A stretch of DNA of 37,850 nt from Bacteroidota bacterium (lineage in GTDB: Bacteria; Bacteroidota; Rhodothermia; Rhodothermales; Rubricoccaceae), in assembly GCA_022561755.1 (NCBI GenBank), contig JADFQN010000010.1, positions 1 through 37,850 of the forward strand, read 5' to 3'. Under the pieces are notes generated by a model, which saw only the letters and a list, made by a program, of their open reading frames with translations, had not been told where the DNA came from and ran no database searches. Made by a program: the position numbers and the translations under genes. The first letter of the stretch is position 1; each line of letters begins with the position of its first letter. Positions 4,204 through 27,995 of the stretch are shown piece by piece.

Positions 4204-5487
4204 TTAGAGTTCGTCGAACCAACTGCGCATGCGGCCGGTGATTTTGTTGACCAGGTTGTCCGCCGAACCGGCAAACCCGTCTCCTCCTGCACCAGCGTTC
4301 CCGAACTCGGAAGTCAGGAGCGATGCGCCTGCGCTGCCCGTCCGCAAGCCATGGAGCACAAGGCCGACACTGGTTGCAAATTGCGGGTCGGAGACCTCCT
4401 CGACGAGCCCGCCGGAAAGGCCGAGCGAGCGGCCTATACGGGCTTCGAGGCCGAGGATTTCGGAGGCAAGTTCAGCGGTACCCGGAATCAGCGAGCCGCC
4501 GCCCGTAAGCACGACGCCCGTCGAGAGGTGCCGGCCGTAGCCGCTCCGCTTGATTTCAATCCCCACGATTTCGAGGATCTCCTCCATGCGGGGCTGGATG
4601 ATTTGGGCAAGCGTACTCCGGCCGATGGTCTTCTCGGGGCGGCCCCCGATGCCCGGAATCGTGATTTCCTGGTCGTCTGTAACCTGGTTCACGAGAGCGG
4701 TGCCAAACTGCCGCTTGAGGCGTTCGGCCTGGTCCTGGAGGACACCCAGGCCCTTGCGGATGTCGTCCGTAACCCTGTTTCCGGCTACCGCGATGACGGC
4801 CGTGTGGCGGATCGTCTTGTCCTCAAAAACGGCGATGTCCGTCGTGCCGCCGCCGATGTCGATCAGCGCCACGCCCACTTCCTTCTCGTCCGGATGAAGC
4901 ACGGCGAGCGAAGATGCGAGCGGCTCGAGGACGATGTCCGACACCTCGTAACCGGCCTTTTCAATGCACCGGTATACGTTCTTTGCTGCCGATACAAGGC
5001 CCGTGATGATGTGCACATTCGCTTCGAGGCGGACGCCGCTCATCCCGATCGGGTCGGCGACGCCATCCTGTCCGTCCACGATGAACTCCTGCGGGAGCAC
5101 GTGGAGGATTTCACGATCGGCGGGCATGGCCACGTGGCGCGTGTCCTCCAGCAACCGGCGAACATCACCCTGTGTGATCTCGCCGTCGCGGCCGGAGACC
5201 GTGATCACGCCCCGGCTCTGGAAGCTCTGGATGTGATCGCCCGCGATGCCGACGACAACGGACTGTGTCTCCACACCGGCCGCATGCTCGGCCTCGCTAA
5301 TTGCTCGTTTCACTGCCTCAACCGTCTTGTCGATGTTGACGACGACGCCCCGGTTGAGGCCCTCGGATTCGGCCACGCCGACGCCCAGGATGTTAATGCG
5401 TTCGTGTTCGTCGGCAGAGGCCACCACGGCACATATTTTCGTGGTACCAATGTCGACGCCGACGACGATGTGTTCGCTTTCGTTCAT
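4204..5487 (-). CDS. ftsA: Cell division protein FtsA
   Basis: An actin-like ATPase that tethers FtsZ filaments to the inner face of the cytoplasmic membrane. It is 427 aa, in the normal range. It shows the phosphate-1 motif VGVDIGTTKICAVV at the N-terminus, phosphate-2 ALIDIGGGTTDIAVF near residue 210, and the adenosine motif VLTGGGSLIPG near residue 330. The 1C subdomain (SHS2) lies between phosphate-1 and phosphate-2. The C-terminal KITGRMRSWFDEL is the expected amphipathic membrane-targeting helix. It sits between ftsQ (26 bases upstream) and ftsZ, the usual order. Confidence 0.97.
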   Translation of the reverse strand: MNESEHIVVGVDIGTTKICAVVASADEHERINILGVGVAESEGLNRGVVVNIDKTVEAVKRAISEAEHAAGVETQSVVVGIAGDHIQSFQSRGVITVSGRDGEITQGDVRRLLEDTRHVAMPADREILHVLPQEFIVDGQDGVADPIGMSGVRLEANVHIITGLVSAAKNVYRCIEKAGYEVSDIVLEPLASSLAVLHPDEKEVGVALIDIGGGTTDIAVFEDKTIRHTAVIAVAGNRVTDDIRKGLGVLQDQAERLKRQFGTALVNQVTDDQEITIPGIGGRPEKTIGRSTLAQIIQPRMEEILEIVGIEIKRSGYGRHLSTGVVLTGGGSLIPGTAELASEILGLEARIGRSLGLSGGLVEEVSDPQFATSVGLVLHGLRTGSAGASLLTSEFGNAGAGGDGFAGSADNLVNKITGRMRSWFDEL

Positions 5488-5513
5488 GGCGGTATGGGTT
5501 GAGGGTGCTTGTC

Positions 5514-6299
5514 TTAGTTAGAAATGACGGTGCTGTCTTCGCGGGTTACGATCTGCCCGTCGAAGCGAAGGTCGATAATGCGAAAGGTGAGTTCGGGGCG
5601 AGTGAGGACGGCCTGATGCCAGAAGGCGTGGAGGCGGGTCAGCTTCTTGCCGTAGTTGCCGATGCCGAGGCGCACGGAGACCGATCCGTGCCCACCGCCA
5701 GGGCTGGTGCGCAGGACGGCATTGCCTCCGGCGTCAAACGTGATTTCGGAAATGAGGGCGTCCGTCTCCAGATCGGCTTCGGCGAGAGCCTGGAGCATCT
5801 CGAGCACGGATGCACGCTGGATGGGCTGCGTGGGGTGATAATCAGGAACGCGGCCACGAAGAAGCGGCACGTCGTAAACGGCGCCCCGAACCAGCGGCAT
5901 CGCATAGCCCTCGGCGTCGAGGTAGTGCCCAGGGCGGCCATCTGCCCGAACGACGAGGACAACCGGCTCGCGCTCCACTACCCGAATTGAAAGCGTGCCC
6001 GACGGGCGGCGGCGAATGACCGCATCGCGGACCCACGGCGTCCGGCGGACACGATCCACGAGCACGTCGGATTCGATGGCGAAGAGCCCTATCGAGTCGC
6101 TCTCGAGTGCGGCATAGCGCACCACTTCGGATGAATCCGCGTGGACGGCGCCCGAGACTACCACGCGCTTCATGGGCACACTCTGATGCCACGACCACGC
6201 CATAAACGCGATCATCGCGACCGTCAGAGTCATTCCACCCAGAACCATCCGGCGGAGGATGCGGCGGCGCCTGCGCTGCTTCTTCGTCTCGCGTGCCAT
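5514..6299 (-). CDS. ftsQ: Cell division protein FtsQ/DivIB
   Basis: A bitopic membrane protein of the divisome core that recruits FtsL and the late division proteins. It is 261 aa. A very basic cytoplasmic tail (ETKKQRRRRRILRR) is followed by one transmembrane segment (about residues 18-36). A POTRA domain begins at VPMKRVVVSG, and the FtsQ beta domain follows. Its ATG overlaps the murC stop (TGATG), so the two are translationally coupled. Sequence conservation is low in this family; position between murC and ftsA makes the call firm. Confidence 0.93.
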   Translation of the reverse strand: MARETKKQRRRRRILRRMVLGGMTLTVAMIAFMAWSWHQSVPMKRVVVSGAVHADSSEVVRYAALESDSIGLFAIESDVLVDRVRRTPWVRDAVIRRRPSGTLSIRVVEREPVVLVVRADGRPGHYLDAEGYAMPLVRGAVYDVPLLRGRVPDYHPTQPIQRASVLEMLQALAEADLETDALISEITFDAGGNAVLRTSPGGGHGSVSVRLGIGNYGKKLTRLHAFWHQAVLTRPELTFRIIDLRFDGQIVTREDSTVISN

Positions 6300-7732
6300 C
6301 AGGAGGCCACCTCCGCGTTGCGCTCAACGAGTTGTTCGTAAAAGGCCTTGCTTTGCCGCCAGATGTCGCCCGCGCCCATCGTTATCACGAGGTCGCCGGG
6401 CTCGACGAGGCCGAGCAGAAAGGCGGGGAGTTCGGTTTTGTCCTCCACGTAGTGCACCGCGCGGTGGCCGTTCTGCTTGGCGAGCTCGGCCAGCATGGCT
6501 CCATCCACCCCTTCAATGGGATCCTCCCGTGCTCCGTAGATGTCCGTGAGCACCAGCACATCGGCGTTGACGAACGCGCGGGCAAAGTCGTCGGCCAGGT
6601 AGGCCGTGCGGGAATAGAGATGCGGCTGGAAGACGGCCACGATCCGGCGCGAGGGCCATCCGGTTGTGGCGGCGTCCAGCGTCACGATGATCTCCGTTGG
6701 GTGATGTGCGTAGTCGTCAACCACAATCACACCACCTGCCTCGCCCCGAATCTGGAAGCGGCGGTCCACGCCGGAGTACATCGCCAGGCCTTGTACGATG
6801 GTCTCGAAAGGCACGTCGAGTTCCAACCCGACCGCAACCGCCGCCAACGCATTAAGGACATTGTGGAGGCCGGGTGCGTGCAGCATCGCGCCGCCGAGCC
6901 GGTCATTGCCCCGGAAGACGTCGAAATGCGTGGAGGCTCCAACCTGCTCGACGTTTTCCGCGCGGATTTCCGCCTGCCTGCTCGTACCGTAGGTCAGCAC
7001 CCGGCGGTGGATATCGCTCAGGATGTCGCGCACGTTCGGATCGTCCAAACAGAGGATCGCCGCACCGAAGAAGGGCACCGAGTTGGCGTACTGCGTGAAC
7101 GCCTGCTTAATGTCGTCGAGATCCTCGTAAATGTCGAGGTGCTCGGCCTCAATGTTCGTGATGAGCGCCAGGGCCGGCGTCAGCTTGAGGAACGTCCGGT
7201 CGTATTCATCGGCTTCGATTACGATAACGTCCCCCAAACCGGAAACGGCATTGGAGCCAAATACGGCCACTTTCCCGCCCACGATGATAGTGGGGTCGAA
7301 CCCGGCCTCCTGCGCCACCAGGCCAACCATCGTGGTGGTGGTGGTCTTGCCGTGTGTGCCCGCCACGCCGATGCCGAACTTCATCCGCATCAGTTCGCCG
7401 AGCATCTCCGAGCGCTTGATAATGGGAATGTGCAGCCGCTGCGCCTCTACGGTCTCCGGGTTCTCGTCGGCGCGCACCGCCGAGGAGTACACCACCACGT
7501 CGGCCTCCTGCACGTTCGCCGCCGCGTGGCCTTCGTACACCTCGGCGCCGAGGCTTTCGAGATGATCGGTGACCTCGCTCTTCCGAAGATCCGAGCCAGT
7601 AACGGTGTGCCCGCGCGCCAGCAGCACTTCAGCAATCGACGACATGCCGATTCCGCCGATGCCCACCATGTGGACGTTCCGGATGCGGCCCATCGGGGGC
7701 GCCGAGCGTAACAGGCGTGGAGACGCGCTCAT
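6299..7732 (-). CDS. murC: UDP-N-acetylmuramate--L-alanine ligase MurC
   Basis: Cytoplasmic Mur ligase adding L-alanine to UDP-N-acetylmuramate, the first residue of the peptidoglycan stem peptide. It is 477 aa. The N-terminal UDP-binding Rossmann domain has HMVGIGGIGMSSIAEVLL near residue 21. The ATP-binding P-loop is GTHGKTTTTTM near residue 119. The central domain has EADEYDRTFL, and the C-terminal domain has DDYAHHPTEI, a MurC hallmark. The start overlaps the murG stop by ATGA, indicating coupling. Confidence 0.97.
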   Translation of the reverse strand: MSASPRLLRSAPPMGRIRNVHMVGIGGIGMSSIAEVLLARGHTVTGSDLRKSEVTDHLESLGAEVYEGHAAANVQEADVVVYSSAVRADENPETVEAQRLHIPIIKRSEMLGELMRMKFGIGVAGTHGKTTTTTMVGLVAQEAGFDPTIIVGGKVAVFGSNAVSGLGDVIVIEADEYDRTFLKLTPALALITNIEAEHLDIYEDLDDIKQAFTQYANSVPFFGAAILCLDDPNVRDILSDIHRRVLTYGTSRQAEIRAENVEQVGASTHFDVFRGNDRLGGAMLHAPGLHNVLNALAAVAVGLELDVPFETIVQGLAMYSGVDRRFQIRGEAGGVIVVDDYAHHPTEIIVTLDAATTGWPSRRIVAVFQPHLYSRTAYLADDFARAFVNADVLVLTDIYGAREDPIEGVDGAMLAELAKQNGHRAVHYVEDKTELPAFLLGLVEPGDLVITMGAGDIWRQSKAFYEQLVERNAEVAS

Positions 7733-9183
7733 GCCGTGCCTCCGTGAGTTTCCGCCAACTCCACAACGCGATCTGCAATGGTGCGAGCCGCGTCGGGGCG
7801 AGCGATGTCGAGCGCGGCCTCGCGCATGACGGCGCGGCGGTCTGCATCCGTCAACAATTCCACTACTGTGGCCTCAAACTGGCTGTCGAGGTCCGTTTCG
7901 AGGAGCAACACGGCTGCGCCGGCCTCGGCCAGCGCGCGGGCATTCTTAGTTTGGTGATCGGCCGTAACGTTCGGACTCGGAACGAGCACAGACGGCGTAC
8001 CGGTCACGGTTAACTCGGAACAGGTGATGGCTCCGGCGCGACACAGGACCAGATCGGCCGCCGCGTAGGCCAGATCCATCCGGTCGAGGTACGGCAGCAA
8101 CCGCAGGCGCGGATGGCCGGGAATCCCCTTTTCGAGCGCCTCGAAATACCGCGAGCCCGTCTGCCAGATGAGGAACGCGTTCTCGTCGGCGAGCAGCGAA
8201 TCGATATGCAGTTTGAGCGCGCCGTTGATGGGCCCGGCGCCGAGCGAGCCGCCCATCACCAAAAGAACAGACGCGCCTGTGGGCACACCGAAATGGGCGT
8301 GGGCTTCGGCGCGGTCGGCTTCGGCCAGATCCTGCCGGACAGGATTCCCGGCCAGTACGCACTTCTTCTCCGGGAAGTAGGCCTTGGCAGCCTCGAATGC
8401 GACGAAAATGGTATCGGCGCGCTTCGCGAGCATTTTGTTCGTTGCGCCGGCGTACGCGTTCTGCTCCTGCAAAACCAGGCCGCGGCCCTTCACACTGCCC
8501 GCCATTCCGACGGGGCCGGAGGCGTACCCACCCGTGCCGACCACTACGTCGGGGTCGAACGAACTGACGAGGCGCAGGCTCTCCCACATGCCCTTTGCCA
8601 GCTTGAACGGGAACGTCAGGTTGCGGGTAAGCGCTTCACGCGAAAGGCCTCGCTGGAAGCCGCTTACTGTTACGGCGTGGATCGGGTACCCCGCCTTCGG
8701 CACAGCGGTCCACTCCATTCGGTCGCGCGTGCCTGCAAAAGCGATGGCCGCCGCCGGGTGCTCGGCCCGGATGGCATCCGCGATGGCGATAGCCGGGTAC
8801 ACGTGTCCGCCCGTCCCGCCGCACGCAAAGAGCACGCGGGGCGTTCCGGCAGGAGGCGTCTCCGGTTGGGAGCCAGTGTAGGCGCTATCGAGAACGGCGG
8901 TGGTCAGGGTTTGAGGGGTTGAGAGTGTGAGTGCGTGAGGGATTGAAATCGTAGGGACGTCCCTTGTGGGCGTCCTATGAGTATGAGTGAGTGAGCAGTT
9001 GAGGTAAGGCGTGATCGCCGAGCGCGCCGGGGAGGAGAGTGTGAGAGTATGAGGGATTGAAATCGTAGGGACGTCCCTTGTGGGCGTCCTATGAGTATGA
9101 GTGAGTGAGCAGTTGAGAGTTTGAGAGTCTGGGGGGGTGAGTGGATGAGAGGGCGATCGAGTATGTAAAGTGCTCTCGCACAC
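7729..9183 (-). CDS. murG: UDP-GlcNAc:undecaprenyl-PP-MurNAc-pentapeptide transferase MurG, with odd N-terminus
   Basis: The membrane-associated GT-B glycosyltransferase that converts lipid I to lipid II. Core motifs are FACGGTGGHVYPA (acceptor/diphosphate G-loop), VMGGSLGAGPIN, and CRAGAITCSEL near the UDP-GlcNAc site. The conserved part begins only at about residue 117 (near 8835) and matches the usual length of about 365 aa. The preceding 116 codons are open but non-conserved and contain two copies of an in-frame 114-base intergenic repeat. I find no ATG, GTG or TTG in this frame between the GTG at 9183, which abuts the ftsW stop, and the conserved core. Either the extension is translated or a rare start (for example CTG near 8907) is used. 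The coordinates follow the only canonical start. Confidence 0.9.
   Translation of the reverse strand: MCESTLHTRSPSHPLTPPDSQTLNCSLTHTHRTPTRDVPTISIPHTLTLSSPARSAITPYLNCSLTHTHRTPTRDVPTISIPHALTLSTPQTLTTAVLDSAYTGSQPETPPAGTPRVLFACGGTGGHVYPAIAIADAIRAEHPAAAIAFAGTRDRMEWTAVPKAGYPIHAVTVSGFQRGLSREALTRNLTFPFKLAKGMWESLRLVSSFDPDVVVGTGGYASGPVGMAGSVKGRGLVLQEQNAYAGATNKMLAKRADTIFVAFEAAKAYFPEKKCVLAGNPVRQDLAEADRAEAHAHFGVPTGASVLLVMGGSLGAGPINGALKLHIDSLLADENAFLIWQTGSRYFEALEKGIPGHPRLRLLPYLDRMDLAYAAADLVLCRAGAITCSELTVTGTPSVLVPSPNVTADHQTKNARALAEAGAAVLLLETDLDSQFEATVVELLTDADRRAVMREAALDIARPDAARTIADRVVELAETHGGTA
8941..9117. repeat. Two-copy 114-bp in-frame direct repeat with palindromic core
   Basis: The 63 bases at 8941-9003 recur identically at 9055-9117, a period of 114 (38 codons). 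Each copy contains the imperfect palindrome GGACGTCCC-TTGT-GGGCGTCC preceded by GTAG, followed by a GAGTATGAGTGAGTGAG tract. The core resembles the REP-like palindromes at 21281-22058. It lies in the predicted N-terminal extension of MurG. Confidence 0.85.
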
Positions 9184-10329
9184 TCATTCTGTCTGGCTGT
9201 GGCGCGAAATGTTGAGAAGGATGCCCACCATTGCGCCCGTAGCGATGAGCGAGGTGCCTCCGTACGAAACGAACGGCATGGCGAGGCCGGTAACGGGGAG
9301 CAGGCCGGAGGCCACGGCGGCGTTCACGAAGCCATATAAAACAATGGCGGTCGTGAGGCCAGTGGCGAGAAAGAGACCGAACGGATCGGGAGAGCCGCGC
9401 GCTATGCGGAGGTAGCCACGCAGCAGCAAGTACGCGAATATGAGGAGGATCATCGTGGCGCCGATGAGGCCGTATTCCTCTGCGATGATGGCAAAAATGA
9501 AGTCGTTGTAGGGCGCCGGGAGGAAGTCGCGCTGGATGCTCTTGCCCGGCCCAACGCCGGTGAGGCCGCCCATCGCAAACGCAATTCGCGCCTGGTCGGC
9601 CTGATAGCCCTCCGCTTGCGAGTCGAAGACCTCGTCCGGGTTCGTGTTGCCGAACACGGAGATGCCGAGGAAACTCTCGAAACGCGCCGCGCGCTCCGGG
9701 GATGACAACAGCAGCAGCGAACCCAGAGCAACAAAGAGCACTGCCACACTTACGAGGTGCGTGATCCGCACTCGCCCTACGAACATTACGATAGAGACCG
9801 ACAGCAATAGAATCGCGGCCGTCGAGAAGTCCTCGATACCAATCAGCAGAAGCGTGGGCCCAATCCAGAAGCAGAGGGGCACGAACGCCCGGTAGAAGTC
9901 GCCGATGTAGTCCTGCTTCTTTGCCAAAAGCACTGACACGTGAATCAGCAGAGCCACTTTTGCGAATTCGGATGGCTGGAAGCTCACCGACCCGATCTCA
10001 ATCCAGCGCACGGCGCCGTTTGTTATCGCGCCGATGATCAGTACCGCCACCAGGAGCACCATCGAGATGAGCATGAACACTTTCGAGAGCTTCGTGAGCC
10101 ACCGATAGTCGATCATCGACAGGACGCCGGCCACGCCCAGCGCCATGCCAACATGAGCCACGTGACGGAACAGAAAACGCTCCTGGTCGCCGCCGGATTT
10201 TGTTTCCGCGAGGAACGCCACCGCGCTGTACACCGCCACCACGCCCGCTGCGGCAAGCAGCAATACGGCCGCCATGACGGCCTTGTCCATCGGCGGAAGT
10301 GCAAGCGTTCGGGTGCGGGCAGTGCTCAT
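9184..10329 (-). CDS. ftsW: SEDS septal peptidoglycan polymerase FtsW
   Basis: The SEDS glycosyltransferase that polymerises lipid II at the septum together with FtsI. It is 381 aa from the ATG; the ORF track begins one codon earlier at a TTG. About ten hydrophobic segments are visible. Family motifs are NGAVRWIEIGSVSFQPSEFAK (split here only for description), FIFAIIAEEYGLIGA, and the signature LLPVTGLAMPFVSYGGTSL near the C-terminus. It follows murD by 12 bases, and its TGA adjoins the predicted murG GTG. RodA is the paralogue to exclude; the dcw location favours FtsW. Confidence 0.95.
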   Translation of the reverse strand: MSTARTRTLALPPMDKAVMAAVLLLAAAGVVAVYSAVAFLAETKSGGDQERFLFRHVAHVGMALGVAGVLSMIDYRWLTKLSKVFMLISMVLLVAVLIIGAITNGAVRWIEIGSVSFQPSEFAKVALLIHVSVLLAKKQDYIGDFYRAFVPLCFWIGPTLLLIGIEDFSTAAILLLSVSIVMFVGRVRITHLVSVAVLFVALGSLLLLSSPERAARFESFLGISVFGNTNPDEVFDSQAEGYQADQARIAFAMGGLTGVGPGKSIQRDFLPAPYNDFIFAIIAEEYGLIGATMILLIFAYLLLRGYLRIARGSPDPFGLFLATGLTTAIVLYGFVNAAVASGLLPVTGLAMPFVSYGGTSLIATGAMVGILLNISRHSQTE

Positions 10330-10341
10330 CAATGGGGTCGG

Positions 10342-11733
10342 TCAAAGGCTCCGGACGAGGTGCCTGAAGTGTTCGCCGCGCTGCTCGAAGTTCTCGTACA
10401 GGTCGAAGGACGCACAGGCGGGGCTGAGGAGGACGATGTCGCCGGGTTCGGCCATCAGGCGGGCGTACTGAATGGCTTCCTCCATCGTCTGGGCGCGGGC
10501 GGTTTGCTCGGCGAACGAGCCGAGCTCGGCGATCACCCTGCCGCCGCTCTCACCAAGGCCGACAATCCCCTTCACCTTCTCACTCACCAGCCGCTCAAGC
10601 GGCCCGTAGTCGTTGCCTTTGTCGCGGCCGCCGGCGATGAGCACGATGGGCTTGGAAAACGACTCCAGTGCATACCAGACGGCATTCACATTGGTCGCCT
10701 TCGAGTCGTTGATGTAGGTGACCTCATGCACCGTCCGGACGGTTTCCAAACGGTTCGGCACGCCTTCGAAAGAGGTCAGGCTCTCGCGGACAACGTCGCT
10801 GCGGATCTCCATTGCACGTGCCGCGATGGCGGCAGCGAGGGAGTTGTAGATATTGTGGCGCCCATCTAAGGCCAGATCGTCCGAGGGCATAAGCTCCTCT
10901 TCGTAAATCACTGTAGACTGTGGGTTAAGGGTCTCGGGGAGGGCGAGGACAACACGGCCATCACGAACGAATGCGCCGCGCTCCAATTGGCGTTCGTTAG
11001 AAATTGGCCACGCGGTAATTCCGCGCTCAGCGCACCACGGCTCCACAAAGTCGCGGACGACTTCATCGTCGTGGTTGTACACCAGCCAGTCGGTTGGCTG
11101 CTGATTTTCAAAAACACGGAATTTGCTCCGGGCATAGAGGTCGAAGTTGTTTTCGTAGCGGTCGAGGTGGTCGGGCGAGATGTTGAGCAGCACCGACACT
11201 TTTGGTCTGAACGTGGCAATGTGGTCGAGCTGGAAGCTGGAGACCTCCAGAACCACCACCGTGTCGTCTCCGATTTCATTGATGTAGCCTGAAAAGGCAG
11301 ACCCGATATTCCCGGCGACGACAAAGTCACGGTTGGCTGTGTGAAAGAGGTGGGCGATGAGCGAGGTGGTGGTAGTCTTGCCGTTCGAGCCCGTCACGGC
11401 GATGATCGGCCCCTTGCAGAGCCAACTCGCCACTTCGATCTCCGAGTAAACGGCGATGTCGCTGCTTAGCGCATCCTGAACGAGATCGGCGCTGGTCGGA
11501 ACACCCGGCGAGAGCACGAGGAAGTCGGCGTCGAGCGCACGACTGGTGTGGCCGCCGAACTCGTAGCGGATGCCCTCCGCGCCGAGGCCTTCCGCGACGG
11601 CCACATCCGGCGAACCCCGTTCGGTGAGGAATACCGACGCGCCCCGGCTCGCCAGCAGCTTCGCAGCCGCAAGGCCGCTCCGCGCCGCGCCGACGACGGT
11701 GATGCGGGAGCCTTTGATTTCGACGGGGTTCAT
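10342..11733 (-). CDS. murD: UDP-N-acetylmuramoyl-L-alanine--D-glutamate ligase MurD
   Basis: Cytoplasmic Mur ligase adding D-glutamate to UDP-MurNAc-L-Ala. It is 463 aa. The N-terminal Rossmann motif is ITVVGAARSGLAAAKLL. The ATP P-loop is VTGSNGKTTTTSLI near residue 115. The central domain has NISPDHLDRY, typical of MurD, and the C-terminal domain has YINDSKATNVNAV with the carboxylate-binding residues, then VLIAGGRDKGND. All catalytic motifs look intact. It lies between mraY (109-base repeat-containing gap) and ftsW. Confidence 0.97.
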   Translation of the reverse strand: MNPVEIKGSRITVVGAARSGLAAAKLLASRGASVFLTERGSPDVAVAEGLGAEGIRYEFGGHTSRALDADFLVLSPGVPTSADLVQDALSSDIAVYSEIEVASWLCKGPIIAVTGSNGKTTTTSLIAHLFHTANRDFVVAGNIGSAFSGYINEIGDDTVVVLEVSSFQLDHIATFRPKVSVLLNISPDHLDRYENNFDLYARSKFRVFENQQPTDWLVYNHDDEVVRDFVEPWCAERGITAWPISNERQLERGAFVRDGRVVLALPETLNPQSTVIYEEELMPSDDLALDGRHNIYNSLAAAIAARAMEIRSDVVRESLTSFEGVPNRLETVRTVHEVTYINDSKATNVNAVWYALESFSKPIVLIAGGRDKGNDYGPLERLVSEKVKGIVGLGESGGRVIAELGSFAEQTARAQTMEEAIQYARLMAEPGDIVLLSPACASFDLYENFEQRGEHFRHLVRSL

Positions 11734-11738
11734 TGGAA

Positions 11739-11840
11739 AAGCTCCGTTCTTCGGACGCTCGCTGCGCTCGCTTTCGTACTTCGTTCTTCACTTTAGTTGA
11801 AACGAGAAGACCGAAGAACAAAGACCGAAGAACAAAGCAC
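11739..11840. repeat. Intergenic short-repeat spacer between mraY and murD
   Basis: GACCGAAGAACAAA occurs twice in tandem (11809-11836). Inverted relatives (TTCGTTCTTC, GTTCTTCGGAC) occur toward murD, around CGCTCGCTGCGCTCG. The spacer can fold back on itself and has no coding potential I trust. Analogous spacers occur at 13016-13064, 19908-19989 and 33824-33900. Confidence 0.6.
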
Positions 11841-11842
11841 GA

Positions 11843-12997
11843 TTAACGTATCCGCAGGAGAAAGAGGGTCAGAGTCACGAGTAGGGCAGTCACGATCCAG
11901 AAGCGCACGACGATCTTGTTCTCGTGGACGCCGAGGGCCTCGTAGTGGTGGTGAAGCGGGGCCATCAGGAAGACGCGCCGCCCTTCACCGTACTTCTTTC
12001 GCGAGTACTTGAAGTAACCCGTCTGGATAATCACCGATACCGTCTCGATCACGAAGATGGCGCACAGAACGGGCAGATAAAGCTCCTTCTTGACCAGAAT
12101 CGCCAACGTCGCGATGGCCGCTCCAAGCGCAAGGCTCCCGGTGTCGCCCATGAAAACCTGCGCGGGGAAGCCGTTGTACCAGAGGAACCCGAAGCATGCC
12201 GCCGCCAGCGCCGCCGCGAACACGGTCAGCTCGCCCGTGCCGGGGAGGTAGAGGTCATTCACGAACTCCGCCAGGATGGTATTGCCGGTGATGTAGATCA
12301 TTACGATCAGCCCGAGCGAAACGAACGCCGCCGTGCCCGCCGTGAGGCCATCGAGGCCGTCCGTGAGGTTCACCGCGTTGGAAACGCCCGTCAGGACGAA
12401 GGTGATGATGGGGATGTAGACCAGCCAGCCAAGCTCGATGCCGAAAAGAGGCGTCAGAAAATCGTAATCGACGATGCCGTTCGTGAGGAACGGCATGCTC
12501 GTCACTGTGTGGATGCCTTCGAGCGCGTTCCAGTTCATGAGGAAGACGCTCAGCGCGATTCCTAGACTAATCTGCCCCGCCAGCTTCACCTTCCCTGCCA
12601 GCCCTTTCTTGTTCTTCCGCACCACCTTTATATAGTCGTCGGCGAAGCCGACTGCGCCCATCCACAGCGTAGAGATCAGCGCGAGCCAGACGTAGACGTT
12701 GGTCAGATCGGCCCAGAGAAGGGTGGCCCCAGCGATGGCCAGCAGGATGATCACCCCGCCCATAGTGGGGGTTCCAGCCTTGTGGGCATGGCTCACGACG
12801 CCGGCGTCTTCACCTTCCCGGATGGTTTCACCGATCTGCTGATGGGCCAACCAGCGGATGATCTTCTTGCCGGCAAAAAGCCCGATCAGCAGCGCCGTTC
12901 CGGCCGCCAGCGACGCGCGAACCGTGGTGAACTCAAAGACCTGAAAACCAGGAGGCTGAAAGGTCTGTTCGAGCCAGCTGAGGAGGTGGTAGAGCAT
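11843..12997 (-). CDS. mraY: Phospho-N-acetylmuramoyl-pentapeptide transferase MraY
   Basis: The integral membrane enzyme that transfers phospho-MurNAc-pentapeptide to undecaprenyl phosphate, forming lipid I. It is 384 aa with about ten transmembrane segments. Diagnostic motifs are GTPTMGGVIILLAI, GFADDYIKVVRKNKKGL (with the catalytic Asp-Asp), NLTDGLDGLTAGTAAF, and LMAPLHHHYEALG. All conserved Asp and His residues are present. In the transcript it follows murE directly. murF, which adds D-Ala-D-Ala, is not in the cluster and must lie elsewhere, as is common in Bacteroidota. Confidence 0.97.
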   Translation of the reverse strand: MLYHLLSWLEQTFQPPGFQVFEFTTVRASLAAGTALLIGLFAGKKIIRWLAHQQIGETIREGEDAGVVSHAHKAGTPTMGGVIILLAIAGATLLWADLTNVYVWLALISTLWMGAVGFADDYIKVVRKNKKGLAGKVKLAGQISLGIALSVFLMNWNALEGIHTVTSMPFLTNGIVDYDFLTPLFGIELGWLVYIPIITFVLTGVSNAVNLTDGLDGLTAGTAAFVSLGLIVMIYITGNTILAEFVNDLYLPGTGELTVFAAALAAACFGFLWYNGFPAQVFMGDTGSLALGAAIATLAILVKKELYLPVLCAIFVIETVSVIIQTGYFKYSRKKYGEGRRVFLMAPLHHHYEALGVHENKIVVRFWIVTALLVTLTLFLLRIR

Positions 12998-13015
12998 GGA
13001 GCTTGTGATTGACCA

Positions 13016-13064
13016 CCAACGGCCGACAACTGACTGCGGTCAACGGTCAGCGGTCAGCGGTCTT
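13016..13064. repeat. GGTCAGC-type tandem repeat at the murE 3' end
   Basis: GGTCAACGGTCAGCGGTCAGCGGTC consists of about 3.5 units of a 7-base GGTCARC repeat. It straddles the murE stop codon and supplies its last codons (PLTADR). Upstream GACCACCAACGGCCGACAAC is a degenerate relative. Confidence 0.7.
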
Positions 13065-14626
13065 TGAAGAAGAGCATTCTCCAGGTGCATACGATCATCA
13101 AAAGGTCGTTTTTCGGTACCGATGATCTGGTAGTCTTCGTGGCCTTTTCCGGCCACGACAACGACATCTCCGGGGGCGGACCCCGCGACGGCGGTGGCGA
13201 TGGCCTCAGCCCGATCGGGGAGCGTGGTTGCGGCGGATGGGTCTTGTAGTCCGGTCTGAATCTCGGCGATAATCGTGAGCGGGTCTTCCGTTCGGGGGTT
13301 GTCGTTGGTGAGAATGACCCGGTCGGCGTGGGTCTCGGCGACGCGGGCCATTTTGGGACGTTTCGTGCGATCTCTATCTCCACCGCAGCCGAAAACAGCG
13401 ATGAGTTTTCTGTTAGGCTCCATCATCTCGCGAGCCGTTCGGAGGACGTTGTCGAGCGCATCGGGCGTGTGGGCGTAATCCACAATGCCGAGAACGCCGT
13501 CTTCCGAGGCAAACGTCTCGAAACGACCGGGGACGCCGGGAGCCCTGGTTAGAACACCGAGCACTTCATCCCGCGAATACCCGAGTTCGCGGCCCACCGC
13601 ATACGCTGCGGCAACGTTCAACGCGTTGAAGCGCCCCGCGAGCCGGAACTTCTTTTCGACGCCATCGAGTCGGAGTAGCAAACCGCTAAGTGCGTTCTCC
13701 AGAACCTCCACGGGGACATCAGCATCCGCGTCAGTGCCGAACGTGATCACACGGGCCGCGGAGTCGGCCACCATGCTCTCCCACGCGGGGTCGTCGCAGT
13801 TTACGATGGCCGCGGCGTCGGCCTGGAGGCCATCAAACAGCCTCTTTTTGGCGGATGCGTAGGCCTCGGGCGATCCGTGGAAATCGAGGTGGTCGTGCGT
13901 CAGGTTGGTGAAAACACCGACACGGAAGCGTTGCCCTCGTACGCGATCGAGCGCGAGCCCGTGCGAGGAGACCTCCATGGCGCAGGTACTGCATCCGGCG
14001 TCCACCATCGCACGAAGCACGCGGTTCAATTCAATGGGCTCGGGCGTCGTGTAGCCCGTAGCGATAATCTGTTCGCCGATCCGGTTCTCAATCGTCCCGA
14101 CGAGCCCTGTCTTCTCGCCCAGCGCCATCATCAGATGGTGGAGCAGGAAGACGGTGGTTGTCTTGCCGTTGGTGCCGGTGACCCCGAGGATATCGAGCGA
14201 CGCGCCGGGATGCCCGTAGAACGCATTCGCGACCTCCGCCAGCGCGGCTCTCGTATCTGAAACAGGTACGAAAACCGCGCTGGGGAGGCGCTCACCCTTC
14301 CCCAAGGGACTCGTTGCAGGCGATGCCTCGCCTGCGGACGCCGTTGCTTCGCGGAGCCAATCGGCATCCACGATGGCGGCAACGGCGCCTTGTTGCACAG
14401 CCGTGTCAAGGAACAGGTGCCCGTCGCTGTGGTCGCCCTTGCGGGCGATGAACAGCGTGTCGGGCCCGACATCGCGGCTGTCTTCCGCGAGTCGGTGAAT
14501 CAGAACCTGATCGGCCTCCGGTACATCAACCACCAGCAAGCCTGCTGCACGCAGCGGTACGAGCAGGCCGGCCAGCGGCTGCGGGGGGACGACAGGGTCA
14601 GTAAGCAAAGAACGGGTAGCGCCCAC
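13040..14626 (-). CDS. murE: UDP-N-acetylmuramoyl-tripeptide synthetase MurE (meso-DAP type)
   Basis: Cytoplasmic Mur ligase adding the third stem residue. The motif DNPRTEDP is the known signature for meso-diaminopimelate rather than lysine. Other motifs are the N-terminal EDSRDVGPDTLFIARKG, the P-loop GVTGTNGKTTTVFLL, NLTHDHLDFHGS, and VDYAHTPDALDNVL. The ORF-track start (14746) would overlap ftsI by 115 bases and add arginine-rich non-conserved residues. I prefer the GTG at 14626, six bases after the ftsI stop, giving 528 aa. A TTG at 14608 is an alternative. An insertion-like stretch near residues 105-135 (GEASPATSPLGKGERLPSA) is not typical of the family and may be repeat-derived. The last residues come from the 7-base tandem repeat. 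Confidence 0.94.
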   Translation of the reverse strand: MGATRSLLTDPVVPPQPLAGLLVPLRAAGLLVVDVPEADQVLIHRLAEDSRDVGPDTLFIARKGDHSDGHLFLDTAVQQGAVAAIVDADWLREATASAGEASPATSPLGKGERLPSAVFVPVSDTRAALAEVANAFYGHPGASLDILGVTGTNGKTTTVFLLHHLMMALGEKTGLVGTIENRIGEQIIATGYTTPEPIELNRVLRAMVDAGCSTCAMEVSSHGLALDRVRGQRFRVGVFTNLTHDHLDFHGSPEAYASAKKRLFDGLQADAAAIVNCDDPAWESMVADSAARVITFGTDADADVPVEVLENALSGLLLRLDGVEKKFRLAGRFNALNVAAAYAVGRELGYSRDEVLGVLTRAPGVPGRFETFASEDGVLGIVDYAHTPDALDNVLRTAREMMEPNRKLIAVFGCGGDRDRTKRPKMARVAETHADRVILTNDNPRTEDPLTIIAEIQTGLQDPSAATTLPDRAEAIATAVAGSAPGDVVVVAGKGHEDYQIIGTEKRPFDDRMHLENALLQRPLTADR

Positions 14627-14631
14627 GGCCG

Positions 14632-16728
14632 TCAGCGCAAAGTCAGAACCGCCTGTGAGGGTAATGAGGCGCCGGAATTGGGGGATTGCGCGGTCACGAC
14701 ACCGGAGCCCTGAAGGCGGGCCTCCACGCCGAGCGACGCGAGCCATATCACGGCACGGCGGGTAGATAATCCGCTCAGGTCCGGCATGGTAATGGGTTCA
14801 GTAGGCGAATCGGAGGCGGCCGTAACCACGGTGTTACGGCTCGGCTCGCGCCGTTCGGAAGGTGTAGTCGTCAGACGTACGGCACTTCTGATGCGCGTCG
14901 TATCACCGCCATTAGGACGTTGGGCCGATACAATCTGCCACGCGGCATCCCGCGCAAGGCGCACGGGGAAGCCGTTCGCGCGGAGGCGCCCGGCTGCCAG
15001 CACGCCCGGCATCCCGCCGACATCCGGAACGCGGGCTTCGGTGCGTTCGGGAAGGACATCCGCCGGAGCCACCTGTTCTGCGATGCTTGGGAACGTGCCG
15101 ATCCACCGGCGGGCGATCTCTCCGAAAATCGGCGCAGCGACGGTCCCACCATACGAACCGTTCCGGGGGTTATTCAACACCACGATCATTGCCACTTCGG
15201 GATTGTCCGCTGGGAAGAAGCCCACAAACGAGGCGCGGTAGCGGCGCTGGTAGCCGCCGCCCGAAGCAATCTGTGCGGTACCGGTCTTGCCTGCGATCCG
15301 AAGGCCTTCCACCGCTGCCCTGCGGCCCGTTCCCTCGCGGGAAACGACGCGCTCGAACCACGGCAACAAACGCTCGGCGGTTTCGGGATCAAAGGCGCGG
15401 CGGATGGAGTCCTGGCGAGCCGTCCACGTTACGCGGCCATGCACATTGCGGCGCTCGGCAACGACGTACGGCCGCACGAGCAAGCCACCGTTGGCGAGCG
15501 CGCTGTAGGCCGTAACAATTTGTAACGCCGTGGCTTCCACCTCATAACCGGTAGCCATCCAGGGGAGTGTGATGCCGCTCCACGTCTCGGGCCGTTTGAG
15601 GCTGCCCGCCACTTCGCCGGGCAGATCCACGAGCGTCGGCTGGCCGAAACCGAATGCGCGCGCATACTGGTAGAAGGTGCCGCGCTCCATCCGGTAGGCC
15701 GTGCGTGCCATAGCCACGTTCGACGATTTCACGATGGCCATCCCGAAAGGAATCCGCCCGTAGCCGTGGCTGTCGTGCATGGTGCGGCCATGGAAGACGG
15801 CCCAGCCCTGCCCGGTATCTACGGAATCCTCCAGAGCAATCAGCCCGCTTTCAACCGCCGCCACCGCGGTGACGAGCTTGAACGTCGAGCCCGGTTCGAA
15901 ACGGTCGGTAATCGCGTGGTTGCGGCGCGCAGCGGCCGAAAATGCGCCCGGGCGGTTGGGGTCGTAATCCGGGACGTTTGCCATCGCCAGAATGGCGCCG
16001 GTACGGGGGTCCATCGCAACGGCGGTGCCCCAGGTAGCCTCGGCTTCGGCAACACCGCGCGCTAGTTCTTCCTCCAGAATGGCCTGACGGACGAGATCGA
16101 TGGTCAGCACCAGATGCTCGCCGTGGCGGGGTTCCTCAACCGGCCCACCGACCAGAGCTTTTACGATGCCCCGGCGGTCGCGTTGCACCGCCTGGCGGCC
16201 GGGTTCGCCTTGCAAATACTCGTCGTAGAGCATCTCAAGGCCTGCCTGTCCCCGCAAATCCGTATCCACGTGGCCGAGGATGTGGCCGGCCGTGCGCGCG
16301 TAATTGTAGCGGCGCGCAAACGAGCCGGTCAGGAGCAGCCCAGGGATGTCCGCCGCGTCGATCTCTTCTTTCGAGGTCTCGTCGAGCGATCGAACGAGCA
16401 GCACGTACTGGCGGCTCGCGCGGCCGGCTACGCGGTTGCGGTAGTAGCTCGCAGGGCGATCCGTGAAACGGCCGAGCAACGCGTAGAACTCCTCGGCTCG
16501 CTCCTCAAAGCCGGCAATGGTCGGATCGAGCGCCACCTCATACCGTGCGGTATTGACCACAAGCGCACGCCCCGCCTGATCGTAGATGGATCCCCGCGTA
16601 GCCGGCAGATCCACAAACGACGATGCCTGCCGCTCACCCCGCTCGCGGAGTTCGCTTCCGTCGCTCAGGTGGATCCGCACCATCTGGGCGAACACACCGA
16701 CCGGGAGAATCAGCAGGAACGCGATCAC
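14632..16728 (-). CDS. ftsI: Septal peptidoglycan transpeptidase FtsI/PBP3 with PASTA domains
   Basis: The class B penicillin-binding protein that cross-links septal peptidoglycan with FtsW. It is 698 aa. A single N-terminal membrane segment is followed by the dimerisation/pedestal domain (LPATRGSIYDQAGR). The transpeptidase domain has the active-site STFK near residue 281, SSN near 335 and KTGTAQI near 481. The C-terminus carries two PASTA repeats (VPDVGGMPG..., MPDLSGLSTR...), as in SpoVD-like enzymes. The start is a GTG inside the expected transmembrane segment. Upstream, the frame is open to a TAA but contains no ATG, GTG or TTG; conserved-looking residues (ILSRLYV) lie in that stretch, so a non-canonical start such as ATT or CTG is possible. 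Confidence 0.95.
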   Translation of the reverse strand: MIAFLLILPVGVFAQMVRIHLSDGSELRERGERQASSFVDLPATRGSIYDQAGRALVVNTARYEVALDPTIAGFEERAEEFYALLGRFTDRPASYYRNRVAGRASRQYVLLVRSLDETSKEEIDAADIPGLLLTGSFARRYNYARTAGHILGHVDTDLRGQAGLEMLYDEYLQGEPGRQAVQRDRRGIVKALVGGPVEEPRHGEHLVLTIDLVRQAILEEELARGVAEAEATWGTAVAMDPRTGAILAMANVPDYDPNRPGAFSAAARRNHAITDRFEPGSTFKLVTAVAAVESGLIALEDSVDTGQGWAVFHGRTMHDSHGYGRIPFGMAIVKSSNVAMARTAYRMERGTFYQYARAFGFGQPTLVDLPGEVAGSLKRPETWSGITLPWMATGYEVEATALQIVTAYSALANGGLLVRPYVVAERRNVHGRVTWTARQDSIRRAFDPETAERLLPWFERVVSREGTGRRAAVEGLRIAGKTGTAQIASGGGYQRRYRASFVGFFPADNPEVAMIVVLNNPRNGSYGGTVAAPIFGEIARRWIGTFPSIAEQVAPADVLPERTEARVPDVGGMPGVLAAGRLRANGFPVRLARDAAWQIVSAQRPNGGDTTRIRSAVRLTTTPSERREPSRNTVVTAASDSPTEPITMPDLSGLSTRRAVIWLASLGVEARLQGSGVVTAQSPNSGASLPSQAVLTLR

Positions 16729-16809
16729 GACGTAAAGGCGGCTCAGTATGGTATCGCGAGCGGTAATGGGCTCAGTGTGAAAAAGGTGGAGTGTTTAAAA
16801 GTTGGAGTT

Positions 16810-17364
16810 TTAGTCGTTCACGTTGATGACAGGGCCGTAGGCTGCGCCTTCCTCGAGGCCGAGGGCGGCGGCTCTGTCCATGACTTGCTGCGGACCGGTC
16901 ATCCGATTAAAAGCGCCGCGGAGCCGGTCCCGTGTAAGGCGGAGGCGGAGGTTTTCGCGCCGCTCGCTCTGTAGATTGGCCAACGTCGATTGCGTGGCGT
17001 ACACGTGGCCCACGTACAGCGTCACTGCGATGCAGGCGATCAGCGTCCAGACTGCAAACCGCAGCGACGGCGCAACGTCCAGCACGCGCAATCTCGACTT
17101 CCTTCGCGTTGAGGGGCCACTTCGCTTCCGCCTGTTGGTCTTCCGCGCCGTTCCGTTGTCGGATATCCCCAGGTCGTTCCATCCGGGCAAACCCGTGCTG
17201 GGCGCAACAAGGCGGGAATGCGTGGAGCGACGGCTTTGGCTGGTCTCGGCCGTGCGGCTCGGCTTACGGACCGGGCGACGGCCGGAGTTCCGCAATGCGC
17301 GCCTCGCAGACGTAGATGTGCGCCTCGCAGACTTGGATGTACGCGTCGCAGACTTGGCGGGCAT
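16810..17364 (-). CDS. ftsL: Cell division protein FtsL-like, with long basic N-terminal tail
   Basis: A bitopic divisome protein bridging FtsQ and FtsW-FtsI. It is 184 aa, longer than the usual 100-130. About 100 residues of Arg/Ser/Thr-rich cytoplasmic sequence come first, including near-repeats (TSKSARRTSTSARRA). One transmembrane segment follows (FAVWTLIACIAVTLYVGHVYA, about 103-123), then a short coiled-coil-like periplasmic segment (LANLQSERRENLRLRLTRDRLRGAF). FtsL is poorly conserved in sequence. The assignment rests on topology and the position between rsmH and ftsI. The tail may be overextended, but no obviously better start was seen. Confidence 0.8.
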   Translation of the reverse strand: MPAKSATRTSKSARRTSTSARRALRNSGRRPVRKPSRTAETSQSRRSTHSRLVAPSTGLPGWNDLGISDNGTARKTNRRKRSGPSTRRKSRLRVLDVAPSLRFAVWTLIACIAVTLYVGHVYATQSTLANLQSERRENLRLRLTRDRLRGAFNRMTGPQQVMDRAAALGLEEGAAYGPVINVND

Positions 17365-17460
17365 GAGTAGCGGTAGGGCGAGAAGTGAAAAGCGGGGCGA
17401 GCGCGGGAAGCGAGGGGGGGTGGGCGGGGGACGCGGGCATACGGGCCCGGGCCGGCCCCC

Positions 17461-18522
17461 TCACGATTCCCGCTGTCGCGGATGACTGGTTTGCGGATCG
17501 GGTTTCTTTTCGGAGATGCGTAGCCGCGCGCTGCGCGCGCGGGGGTTGGCCTGGATTTCCTCGGGCGTGGCCACGATGGGCTTCCGGGTGAGGAGATTCC
17601 ACGGTGTGAGCAGGTTGCCGTAAAAGTCCTTTTTGGCCTCGCCTTCCAGATTGCCGAAGCGGAGGTAGTGCTTGGCGCGGCGGTCTTCGAGCGAGTGGTA
17701 GCTAATAACCGCAAGGTGCCCGCCGGGACGAAGAACGTTGAGAGCCGCCTCCAAAGTGCGTTCAAGCGCACTCATCTCGTCGTTGACGGCGATGCGGAAG
17801 GCCTGGAAAACGCGGGCGAGCGTCTTGACCTCTTCCTTCGCGGGAACGGCGCTGCGCACGACCTCTGCTAATTCACCGGTCGTGGCAAAGGCGCCGTGCT
17901 CTACAATAGCGTTGGCAATGGGCCACGCCCGCGGCTCGTCGCCATAGGCCCGGAGGAGGTCGGTGATGGCCTGTACATCGAGGCGGTCGATCAGTTCGGC
18001 GGCGGTTTCACCAGTGCTGGCATCCATCCGCATGTCCAACGGGCCGTCGGCCGAGAATGCAAAGCCGCGCGCGGCCTCGTCGATCTGATGCGAGGAAATG
18101 CCGAGATCGAGCAAGACGCCATGCACAGCCTCTACGTCGGCGTCAGCCAGCAGGTCTTCCATATCGGCGAAGTTGCCATGGATCGTCCGGAAGCGTCCGG
18201 CTTCGACCGCATATGACAAACGCTCTTCAGATGCGGCAAGAGCTTCTGCATCCTTATCGATCCCGATCACACGCCCCGTGGGAGTGAGTGCGTTCAACAA
18301 AGCGTCGCTATGGCCTCCGCCACCCAGCGTACCATCTATATAGATCCCTGCACGATCCGTCACGAGCCCGTCCACCACAGCAGCGGCCATCACGGGCGCG
18401 TGGTAGGCAGAAGCAAAGCGGAGCGGATCCGCCGACAGGCTTACGGGCCGGCCGGTGGATCGGGCTCCACGGCCCGAAGGCCGATGGGATTGGGGAGCCA
18501 TGTGGATTGCTGCCGTCTGCAT
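17461..18522 (-). CDS. rsmH: 16S rRNA m4C1402 methyltransferase RsmH (MraW)
   Basis: SAM-dependent N4-methylation of C1402 in 16S rRNA. It is 353 aa. Motifs are YHAPVMAAAVVDGL, the SAM-binding YIDGTLGGGGHSDALL near residue 63, LLDLGISSHQIDEAARGFAF, and the C-terminal LRPGGHLAVISYHSLEDRRAKHYLR. An extra N-terminal stretch of about 35 residues (Arg/Ser/Gly-rich) precedes the conserved core and is probably unstructured. The gene begins six bases after mraZ, the standard second position of dcw clusters. Confidence 0.96.
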   Translation of the reverse strand: MQTAAIHMAPQSHRPSGRGARSTGRPVSLSADPLRFASAYHAPVMAAAVVDGLVTDRAGIYIDGTLGGGGHSDALLNALTPTGRVIGIDKDAEALAASEERLSYAVEAGRFRTIHGNFADMEDLLADADVEAVHGVLLDLGISSHQIDEAARGFAFSADGPLDMRMDASTGETAAELIDRLDVQAITDLLRAYGDEPRAWPIANAIVEHGAFATTGELAEVVRSAVPAKEEVKTLARVFQAFRIAVNDEMSALERTLEAALNVLRPGGHLAVISYHSLEDRRAKHYLRFGNLEGEAKKDFYGNLLTPWNLLTRKPIVATPEEIQANPRARSARLRISEKKPDPQTSHPRQRES

Positions 18523-18528
18523 GGTGGA

Positions 18529-18987
18529 TTACTCGGATTCGAACTTGCTCATAACGCGCTCAACCAGACTCTCATATGAGTCGGCCTGGGCGTCGTCTTC
18601 GGCTTTCAGGATGGCGGGGTCCCAGATCTCAATCGTGTCGATCGTTCCGATGATGACAACCTTCTCGCCATCGAGACCGGCATGGTCGATGTGTGTGCGC
18701 GGAAGGCTGATTCGTCCTTGGGCATCGAGGATTACCCGCTCAGCCCTGCGCGATTCGGTGCGCTTGACTATCCGGTTATCCTTGAGAAACGGGCTTAGCT
18801 TCGTGAGCAAGTCCGCCTTCTCTTTCCAAACATTCTTGGGAATCAGCGTGACGCATTGCTCGATGCCCTGCCAGGCAATGAACGTCTCGTCCGCATCGGG
18901 GCTCAACTCGCGTCGCATCCTTGCCGGCAAGGCCACGCGGCCCTTGTCGTCAATGGAGTGCTCAGATTGTCCTAAGAACCCGACCAT
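18529..18987 (-). CDS. mraZ: Transcriptional regulator MraZ
   Basis: The first gene of the dcw operon; in other bacteria MraZ represses its own promoter by binding tandem G-rich repeats. It is 152 aa from the chosen ATG (MVGFLGQSEHSIDDKGRVALPARMRREL). The ORF-track start adds 22 residues translated from the G-rich leader. A GGGGGAG Shine-Dalgarno-like run lies just before the chosen ATG. Two SpoVT/AbrB-like domains are present, the second at ERVILDAQGRISLPRTHID. Length is normal (about 145-155). Confidence 0.95.
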   Translation of the reverse strand: MVGFLGQSEHSIDDKGRVALPARMRRELSPDADETFIAWQGIEQCVTLIPKNVWKEKADLLTKLSPFLKDNRIVKRTESRRAERVILDAQGRISLPRTHIDHAGLDGEKVVIIGTIDTIEIWDPAILKAEDDAQADSYESLVERVMSKFESE

Positions 18988-18995
18988 GGTCGGCT

Positions 18996-19051
18996 CCCCC
19001 ACAATTCGCCAGAGTTTGGGATTCTTCCCCACAATTCCCCCCCACGGCCCC
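18996..19051 (-). promoter_or_regulatory. Putative MraZ operator (G-rich repeats in the mraZ leader)
   Basis: On the minus strand the leader contains TTTGGGGCC, GTGGGGGGG and twice GAATTGTGGGG (19027-19037 and within 18996-19007). In E. coli MraZ binds three TGGGN repeats about ten bases apart near its own promoter. Spacing here is roughly 10-11 bases for the upstream three and about 31 for the last. The family behaviour is known; binding here is inferred. Confidence 0.4.
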
Positions 19052-19080
19052 AAAGTATCTCTGAATGCCCAATAATCAAG
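19051..19080 (-). promoter_or_regulatory. Candidate Bacteroidota-type promoter of the dcw operon
   Basis: On the minus strand CTTG is followed 19 bases later by TACTTTG, close to the Bacteroidota -33 TTTG / -7 TAnnTTTG consensus, though one base shorter in the -7 box. It lies about 64 bases upstream of the mraZ ATG and directly before the G-rich repeats. Confidence 0.35.
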
Positions 19081-19151: not shown

Positions 19152-19185
19152 ATCGCTATGGTGAATATGAATTCACCATAGCGAT
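19152..19185. promoter_or_regulatory. 34-bp near-perfect palindrome, candidate LexA operator 1
   Basis: ATCGCTATGGTGAAT is perfectly inverted as ATTCACCATAGCGAT around a 4-base centre. The core reads GGTGAA-N6-TTCACC and ends 66 bases before the lexA ATG. Symmetry this long next to an HTH repressor gene implies a dimer-binding site. Binding by this LexA is inferred. Confidence 0.7.
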
Positions 19186-19201
19186 TACGTCAAGCCTGGA
19201 T

Positions 19202-19219
19202 GGTGAACGTATTTTCACC
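19202..19219. promoter_or_regulatory. Second GGTGAA-N6-TTCACC site, candidate LexA operator 2
   Basis: GGTGAACGTATTTTCACC has the same core as operator 1. Its centre (19210.5) is exactly 42 bases from that of operator 1 (19168.5), four helical turns, so both face the same side of the DNA. TATTTTC inside it could be a -7 box for lexA, which would make the site repressive. Confidence 0.65.
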
Positions 19220-19899: not shown

Positions 19900-19907
19900 A
19901 CGGATTG

Positions 19908-19989
19908 GTGCGTATTGCGTAGTGCGTATCAAGGTCGCGGGTTGAGACGCTTTTACGCCATCGAATTACGCAATACGAACTACGCACTA
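19908..19989. terminator. Inverted repeat between convergent lexA and DUF819 gene, possible bidirectional terminator
   Basis: GTGCGTATTGCGTAGTGCGTA (19908-19928) is inverted imperfectly at 19966-19989 (TTACGCAATACGAACTACGCACTA). It can form a long stem with a roughly 40-base loop. Both arms are built from GCGTA-type short repeats. It lies exactly in the gap between two convergent stops. Confidence 0.5.
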
Positions 19990-20004
19990 GCCCAATACCT
20001 ACCC

Positions 20005-21280: not shown

Positions 21281-21432
21281 GTAGGGGCGATTCATGAATC
21301 GCCCCTACGACGCAATGTTCGGGCATTCGTAGGGGCGAGATACATCTCGCCCTGGAGTGCCATCCCTGCCCCTGTGGCGCGGCCCGGAATAGCGTCCAGG
21401 TGCCCATTGGCGTGATGTATCACGCCCCTACG
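21281..21432. repeat. REP-like palindromes (three) between DUF819 and Nudix genes
   Basis: A perfect 28-bp palindrome starts at 21281 (left half GTAGGGGCGATTCA). GTAGGGGCGAGAT-AC-ATCTCGCCC follows at 21329-21352, then GGCGTGAT-GT-ATCACGCC with CCCTACG at 21409-21432. The outer arms are shared and the inner arms vary with compensating changes, so palindromicity rather than sequence is conserved. No gene is seen in this 240-base gap. Confidence 0.8.
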
Positions 21433-27866: not shown

Positions 27867-27995
27867 GGGGTACACCGTCGGCATACCCAAGAGTAGAGAA
27901 GAGAGTTGGGGCACACCGACGGTGTGCCCCAACCGGTGGTATGCCCTGACGACCAGCGTACTCGAAACAGTAAGGTCATACCGGCGGTGTGACCC
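27867..27995. repeat. Three related palindromes between hddA and hddC
   Basis: The units are GGGGTACACCG..CGGCATACCC (27867-27888), a near-perfect 27-bp palindrome with arm TTGGGGCACACCG (27906-27932), and GGTCATACCG..CGGTGTGACC (27974-27995). A half-unit (CGGTGGTATGCCC) sits between the last two. The consensus is about GG(G/T)YAYACCG-n-CGGYRTRCC. They fall between co-directional genes and could act as mRNA stem-loops. Confidence 0.65.

Follow-up and report, generated by a model that had tools for sequence, protein, structure and literature searches.

What purpose do two closely spaced palindromes serve between a lexA-like gene and the division and cell-wall (dcw) cluster in a member of the Rubricoccaceae? 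The window, the whole stretch of 37,850 nucleotides that was analysed, carries both of them in the intergenic region shared by the lexA-like gene and mraZ (Table 1). An earlier note on this DNA had read the two GGTGAA-N6-TTCACC sites as a candidate new LexA box ahead of the neighbouring gene, which it took for lexA. The divergent mraZ/dcw cluster, central to understanding the locus, went unmentioned there.

Table 1. Features of the window around the paired palindromes.
Feature	Position	Strand	Remarks
Remaining dcw genes	4204..18522	-	NCBIfam matches
mraZ	18529..18987	-	divergent from dead lexA, heads the leftward dcw cluster; PF02381 (3.4e-19), NCBIfam MraZ
Three GTGGGG repeats, likely MraZ boxes	18996..19045	-	sequence
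Predicted mraZ promoter	19051..19079	-	TTGAT (19079-19075) and TACTTTG (19057-19051)
Box 1	19152..19185	none	perfect inverted repeat 15-4-15; core GGTGAATATGAATTCACC at 19160-19177
Box 2	19202..19219	none	GGTGAACGTATTTTCACC; the nearer of the two to the dead-lexA gene
LexA paralogue, predicted non-cleavable (dead LexA), 215 aa	19252..19899	+	ATG start inferred by alignment

As sites, the palindromes are what they were said to be. Both cores are found at their claimed positions without a mismatch, their centres (19168.5 and 19210.5) are 42 bp apart, and site 1 is indeed a perfect 15+15 inverted repeat around four central bases. It is the longest perfect inverted repeat of the window, where the longest stems in five shuffles measured 8-12 bp. 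The outer seven base pairs of its arms (ATCGCTA/TAGCGAT) are not kept in the sister species (G001), and some 7 bp per arm are peculiar to the window's genome; the conserved unit is a box of about 18-20 bp and not the full 15+15 repeat. The pattern GGTGAA-N6-TTCACC occurs nowhere else in the 3.06 Mb genome, and the same holds for the shorter GTGAA-N6-TTCAC, which places the pair far beyond chance. The motif is also, as claimed, unlike the well-known LexA boxes with which it had been compared (CTGT-N8-ACAG in E. coli, GAAC-N4-GTTC in Gram-positives and GTTC-N7-GTTC in alphaproteobacteria). A CRP-type site was considered and rejected, since the half-sites here are spaced GTGA-N8-TCAC whereas those of CRP sites are separated by N6.

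A stem that is perfect over 15 bp could also form in a transcript, which would make site 1 an RNA hairpin or terminator. We find this barely credible, because the site has no T-run and lies between two divergent genes, the stem of site 2 is short, and relatives retain the operator-like core but not the long stem. Elsewhere in the window, two more long perfect inverted repeats (27905-27933 and 21281-21308; 14+14 bp, with loops of 1 and 0) are possibly terminators. Directly past the lexA-like gene, an imperfect inverted repeat of GCGTATTGCGTAGTGCGTAT-like units (19905-19990) is possibly a terminator or a repeat element.

The protein encoded beside the boxes combines a LexA_DNA_bind domain (PF01726, 6.2e-19) with a Peptidase_S24 domain. 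Its structure model (mean pLDDT 87) finds its best PDB matches in the LexA proteins of E. coli and Thermotoga, so that both the domain search and the model identify a LexA-type winged-helix DNA-binding domain; the pTM of 0.60 leaves the arrangement of the two domains uncertain. Against the LexA equivalog model TIGR00498 it scores 107.7 bits, with a cut-off of 110.95. Aligned with its relatives, the catalytic motif GxSM reads DDGM, with Gly in place of the catalytic Ser, the catalytic Lys has become Arg, which leaves no Ser-Lys dyad, and Ser-Asp stands at the position of the Ala-Gly scissile site. The protein is thus predicted to keep the winged-helix domain and the S24 fold of LexA and to have lost self-cleavage, the loss of the catalytic site being read from residue identities. 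We refer to it and its homologues as dead LexA.

This loss characterises a family. In a tree of 69 proteins comprising the Rhodothermales dead-LexA branch and LexAs with the Ala-Gly site, Ser and Lys (AG-Ser-Lys LexAs), Lys is replaced by Arg in all 41 Rhodothermales members of the branch and Ser is gone in all but two; it is kept in a few diverged dead LexAs (G045, G071, G321). On the opposite side of the tree, the 27 separate LexAs of the order all retain AG-Ser-Lys; these true LexAs are encoded by genes distinct from dead lexA, which lack the box pair. LexA domains without cleavage residues have been maintained in these 41 Rhodothermales rows and in loci from other classes. Used as a single-sequence query against the genome contigs, the window protein returned no match, while the alignment as query returned 22 loci, including Rhodothermus, Roseithermus, Salinibacter and Salinivenus. 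The window's own genome encodes a second LexA-like protein (G000:C43:10377-10976, L036) with AG, Ser and Lys intact, which groups with the AG-Ser-Lys LexAs and is a candidate for the true SOS repressor or for a mobile-element repressor.

Could dead LexA nevertheless be an SOS repressor that governs DNA repair genes through a new motif? Its LexA domains and the palindrome upstream of its gene speak for this, as does the wide variation known among LexA motifs (PMC8565304). The regulon was addressed by genome-wide pattern searches that allowed mismatches. In the window's genome, one mismatch adds two further sites, both within long ORFs, and a scan upstream of recA, which the earlier note had proposed, found no site. 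Seven Rhodothermus-like genomes searched with up to three mismatches gave two sites each, both at the dead-lexA locus; six of them showed no second target and one had a single extra site. In nine genomes of the window's family the locus boxes were recovered wherever the gene was found. With sites confined to the locus and none at recA, the motif shows no sign of an SOS-like regulon. The identification of the neighbouring gene as an SOS LexA, and of the motif as its box, is therefore not supported: both the catalytic dyad and the Ala-Gly site are gone here and in nearly the whole family, the motif is absent at recA and from the upstream regions of 28 AG-Ser-Lys LexAs, and the same genome has a separate LexA-like protein with the cleavage residues. 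We consider an SOS role of the boxes very improbable.

The box pair is conserved all the same. A weight matrix derived from the regions upstream of dead lexA (RGTGAAAATATTTTCACY) identifies two boxes in nearly all Rhodothermales loci, and box 1 has a homologue in nearly all Rhodothermales relatives. Since the matrix had been built on the very loci that it scored, we used a separate strict rule, which recovers the pair in fewer loci than the matrix does: each site had to read TGAA-N6-TTCA, a single mismatch being tolerated where the flank was a complementary G/C, and two such sites 18-60 bp apart made a pair. Of the 58 intergenic regions between dead lexA and mraZ, 33 contain a strict pair, while the 57 controls contain none (Fisher p 3.5e-13, the counted loci including related genomes that are not independent samples); the Rhodothermales account for 22 of these pairs (43 loci) and other classes of the phylum for 11 (15 loci). 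None was found upstream of AG-Ser-Lys LexAs (0/28), upstream of mraZ genes without dead lexA (0/15) or at dead lexA genes away from mraZ (0/14), and shuffled sequences gave 0.00. The earlier note had held that its motif would fall if it were not conserved; orthologous genes do keep the motif in their upstream regions.

The relation between protein and boxes is one of co-occurrence and co-variation. In other classes of the phylum, dead LexA stands beside mraZ with paired CTGAA-N6-TTCAG boxes, and in the f5 genomes a diverged protein is accompanied by boxes changed to GTGTA-N6-TACAC. Boxes are weak or absent in G084 and in members of f15 and f34. Together with the controls, the two variants indicate that box and protein tend to go together in presence, change and loss. 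G084 has two dead-LexA copies (G084:C7 and G084:C111; L044 and L048). The one distant from mraZ lacks boxes, and at the mraZ-linked copy, too, no pair could be recognised.

This co-variation bears on whether a different regulator, be it canonical LexA, MraZ or an unlinked factor, binds the boxes and controls the divergent genes, as their position in the shared intergenic region might allow. We regard this as quite improbable, given that no boxes are found at mraZ where dead LexA is absent, that they change along with it, and that GTGGGG repeats close by, matched in 40 of 40 relatives, would serve MraZ itself. As for canonical LexA, that of the sister group Balneolaeota recognises a direct repeat, TTACACATATTTTWTACATA, and has an SOS regulon, as established by upstream motif conservation, the approach also taken here for the dead-LexA boxes, and by gel shift (PMC7739468). 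Elements of this ACATA type precede many AG-Ser-Lys lexA genes of the Rhodothermales, unlike the box pair of dead LexA. At intact lexA genes of the order (L099, L102, L105, L114, L115) they often take the form of an ACATAT-N5-ACATA-like direct repeat near the promoter, which by its closeness to the published motif is the probable true SOS box.

A further conserved element, ACACATAT (CACATAT), flanks the box pair at near-fixed distances in many relatives (L009, L021-L033 and others), 29-41 bp beyond the centre of box 2 and about 72-91 bp before it; it is absent from the window and from its own family. The element resembles half of the Balneolaeota direct repeat. We rejected it as a mark of canonical-LexA control of dead lexA, because a second half-site at 11 bp occurs only in the f4 genomes and the window's family lacks it.

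The spacing of the boxes follows the DNA helix. Across families their centres are 22, 31-34, 41-43 or 54 bp apart, near two, three, four and five helical turns, and palindromic, paired and helically phased sites, as first described, are borne out by the window and its relatives. For lineages that are only partly independent, the near-integral number of turns gave p = 0.0016 (eight Rhodothermales family values) and p = 0.002 (seven distinct spacing states), and with 14 families the observed value was reached in 0 of 50,000 simulations. A similar rhythm tends to link box 1 to the predicted -7 element of mraZ: most distances form a series (114/115, 125/126, 135-137, 146 and 158 bp) whose members are about 10.5-11 bp apart, while 89, 108, 112 and 117 bp fall outside it (p = 0.0007 by genus, not tree-corrected). 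The window's genome (115 bp) and its sister (126 bp) differ by one turn. This phasing suggests that the box pair may work together with the mraZ promoter.

The association with mraZ is itself conserved. In the window mraZ is followed by rsmH, a short ORF at the position of ftsL, ftsI/pbp, murE, mraY, murD, ftsW, murG, murC, a second short ORF and ftsA. Among the 41 Rhodothermales homologues, mraZ is divergent from dead lexA in 38, and the gap between the two genes is 207-420 bp in 37 loci and 828 bp in one more. A TAC.TTG/TTGA promoter pair lies upstream of mraZ in 24 of 40 relatives. The predicted mraZ promoter is clear of both boxes, which lie some 90-130 bp further upstream. Any effect on the dcw cluster would thus be exerted at a distance, whether by looping, by contacting MraZ or RNA polymerase, or by an upstream block, and a direct effect on these genes is less certain than autorepression.

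On the other side of the pair, a TANNTT (-10/-7-like) element is found 8-17 bp past the centre of box 2 in 15 of 36 relatives, against a mean of 1.7 and a maximum of 6 in shuffled sequences; the window itself shows no clear TANNTT/-7 element after box 2. At this distance box 2 would cover the -35 region of the lexA-like gene's promoter, and a bound protein would block it, which makes autorepression the most likely activity of the pair. Autorepression might even be all that the boxes do, with the dcw cluster incidental and the protein acting elsewhere via degenerate sites or protein contacts. The place of box 2 beside the gene's own promoter in relatives and the lack of overlap with the predicted mraZ promoter both fit such a role. 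It would leave unexplained why the mraZ neighbourhood is kept across classes, why dead lexA copies distant from mraZ have no boxes and why there is some phasing with the mraZ promoter. In G095, moreover, the gene is on another contig and the box pair is still beside mraZ, although this is one draft MAG and possibly misassembled. On balance we think pure autoregulation unlikely, though worth keeping in mind.

We propose instead that the two palindromes are probably a dedicated, cooperative operator pair for the adjacent dead LexA, serving autorepression and likely also control of the dcw cluster. One dimer would sit on each box and, as the boxes are on the same face of the helix, bound dimers could contact each other. 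The only other gene served by the intergenic region is mraZ, at the head of dcw, and because no second genomic target was found, dcw control, either direct or tuned together with MraZ, would be the most likely output. The old neighbourhood, the boxless copies elsewhere and the G095 boxes left beside mraZ would all fit. Being predicted unable to cut itself, dead LexA should not respond to RecA; its activity would instead depend on its concentration, on a ligand, on modification or on proteolysis.

The closest precedent, by analogy, is the LexA of Synechocystis sp. PCC 6803, which has lost the Ala-Gly site and the catalytic Ser and regulates non-SOS genes (PMC3091678, PMC7567884). Both proteins have a LexA fold without these residues. 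However, the Synechocystis protein is reported from a single cyanobacterium, as its LexA, and has many targets, whereas dead LexA is a family-wide paralogue that exists beside AG-Ser-Lys LexAs, with one putative target region (mraZ) and another motif. Duplication of lexA with a change of motif has also been documented, the diverged copies retaking SOS control in the proposed model (PMC8565304). Dead LexA resembles these paralogues in being a second lexA-like gene product with a probable palindromic operator of its own, but differs in having lost the cleavage residues and in having no SOS regulon. A tie between a LexA protein and mraZ has been seen in the gut SOS meta-regulon, where the region upstream of an mraZ homologue contained the B. 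subtilis LexA motif and was bound by that protein (PMC3998124); here, in contrast, the presumed regulator is encoded beside mraZ and lacks the cleavage residues. No account of a LexA-like gene in partnership with mraZ turned up in the open-access literature, most subscription papers being outside the scope of the search.

Homologues of dead LexA are likely to be annotated as LexA, the window protein falling 3 bits under the NCBIfam equivalog cut-off, while they lack what RecA needs to switch off an SOS repressor. The pair points to an old regulatory switch at division genes rather than to a new DNA-damage signal. More broadly, and with confidence somewhat short of even, it may belong to an ancient division regulator of the Rhodothermales and several other classes: a dcw-dedicated LexA paralogue with one phased operator pair, independent of SOS and acting alongside MraZ. 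If the dcw cluster is controlled in this way, its division and cell-wall genes would have a second dedicated regulator beside MraZ across several classes, and the family would illustrate one path open to an SOS repressor after duplication and the loss of its DNA-damage sensor.
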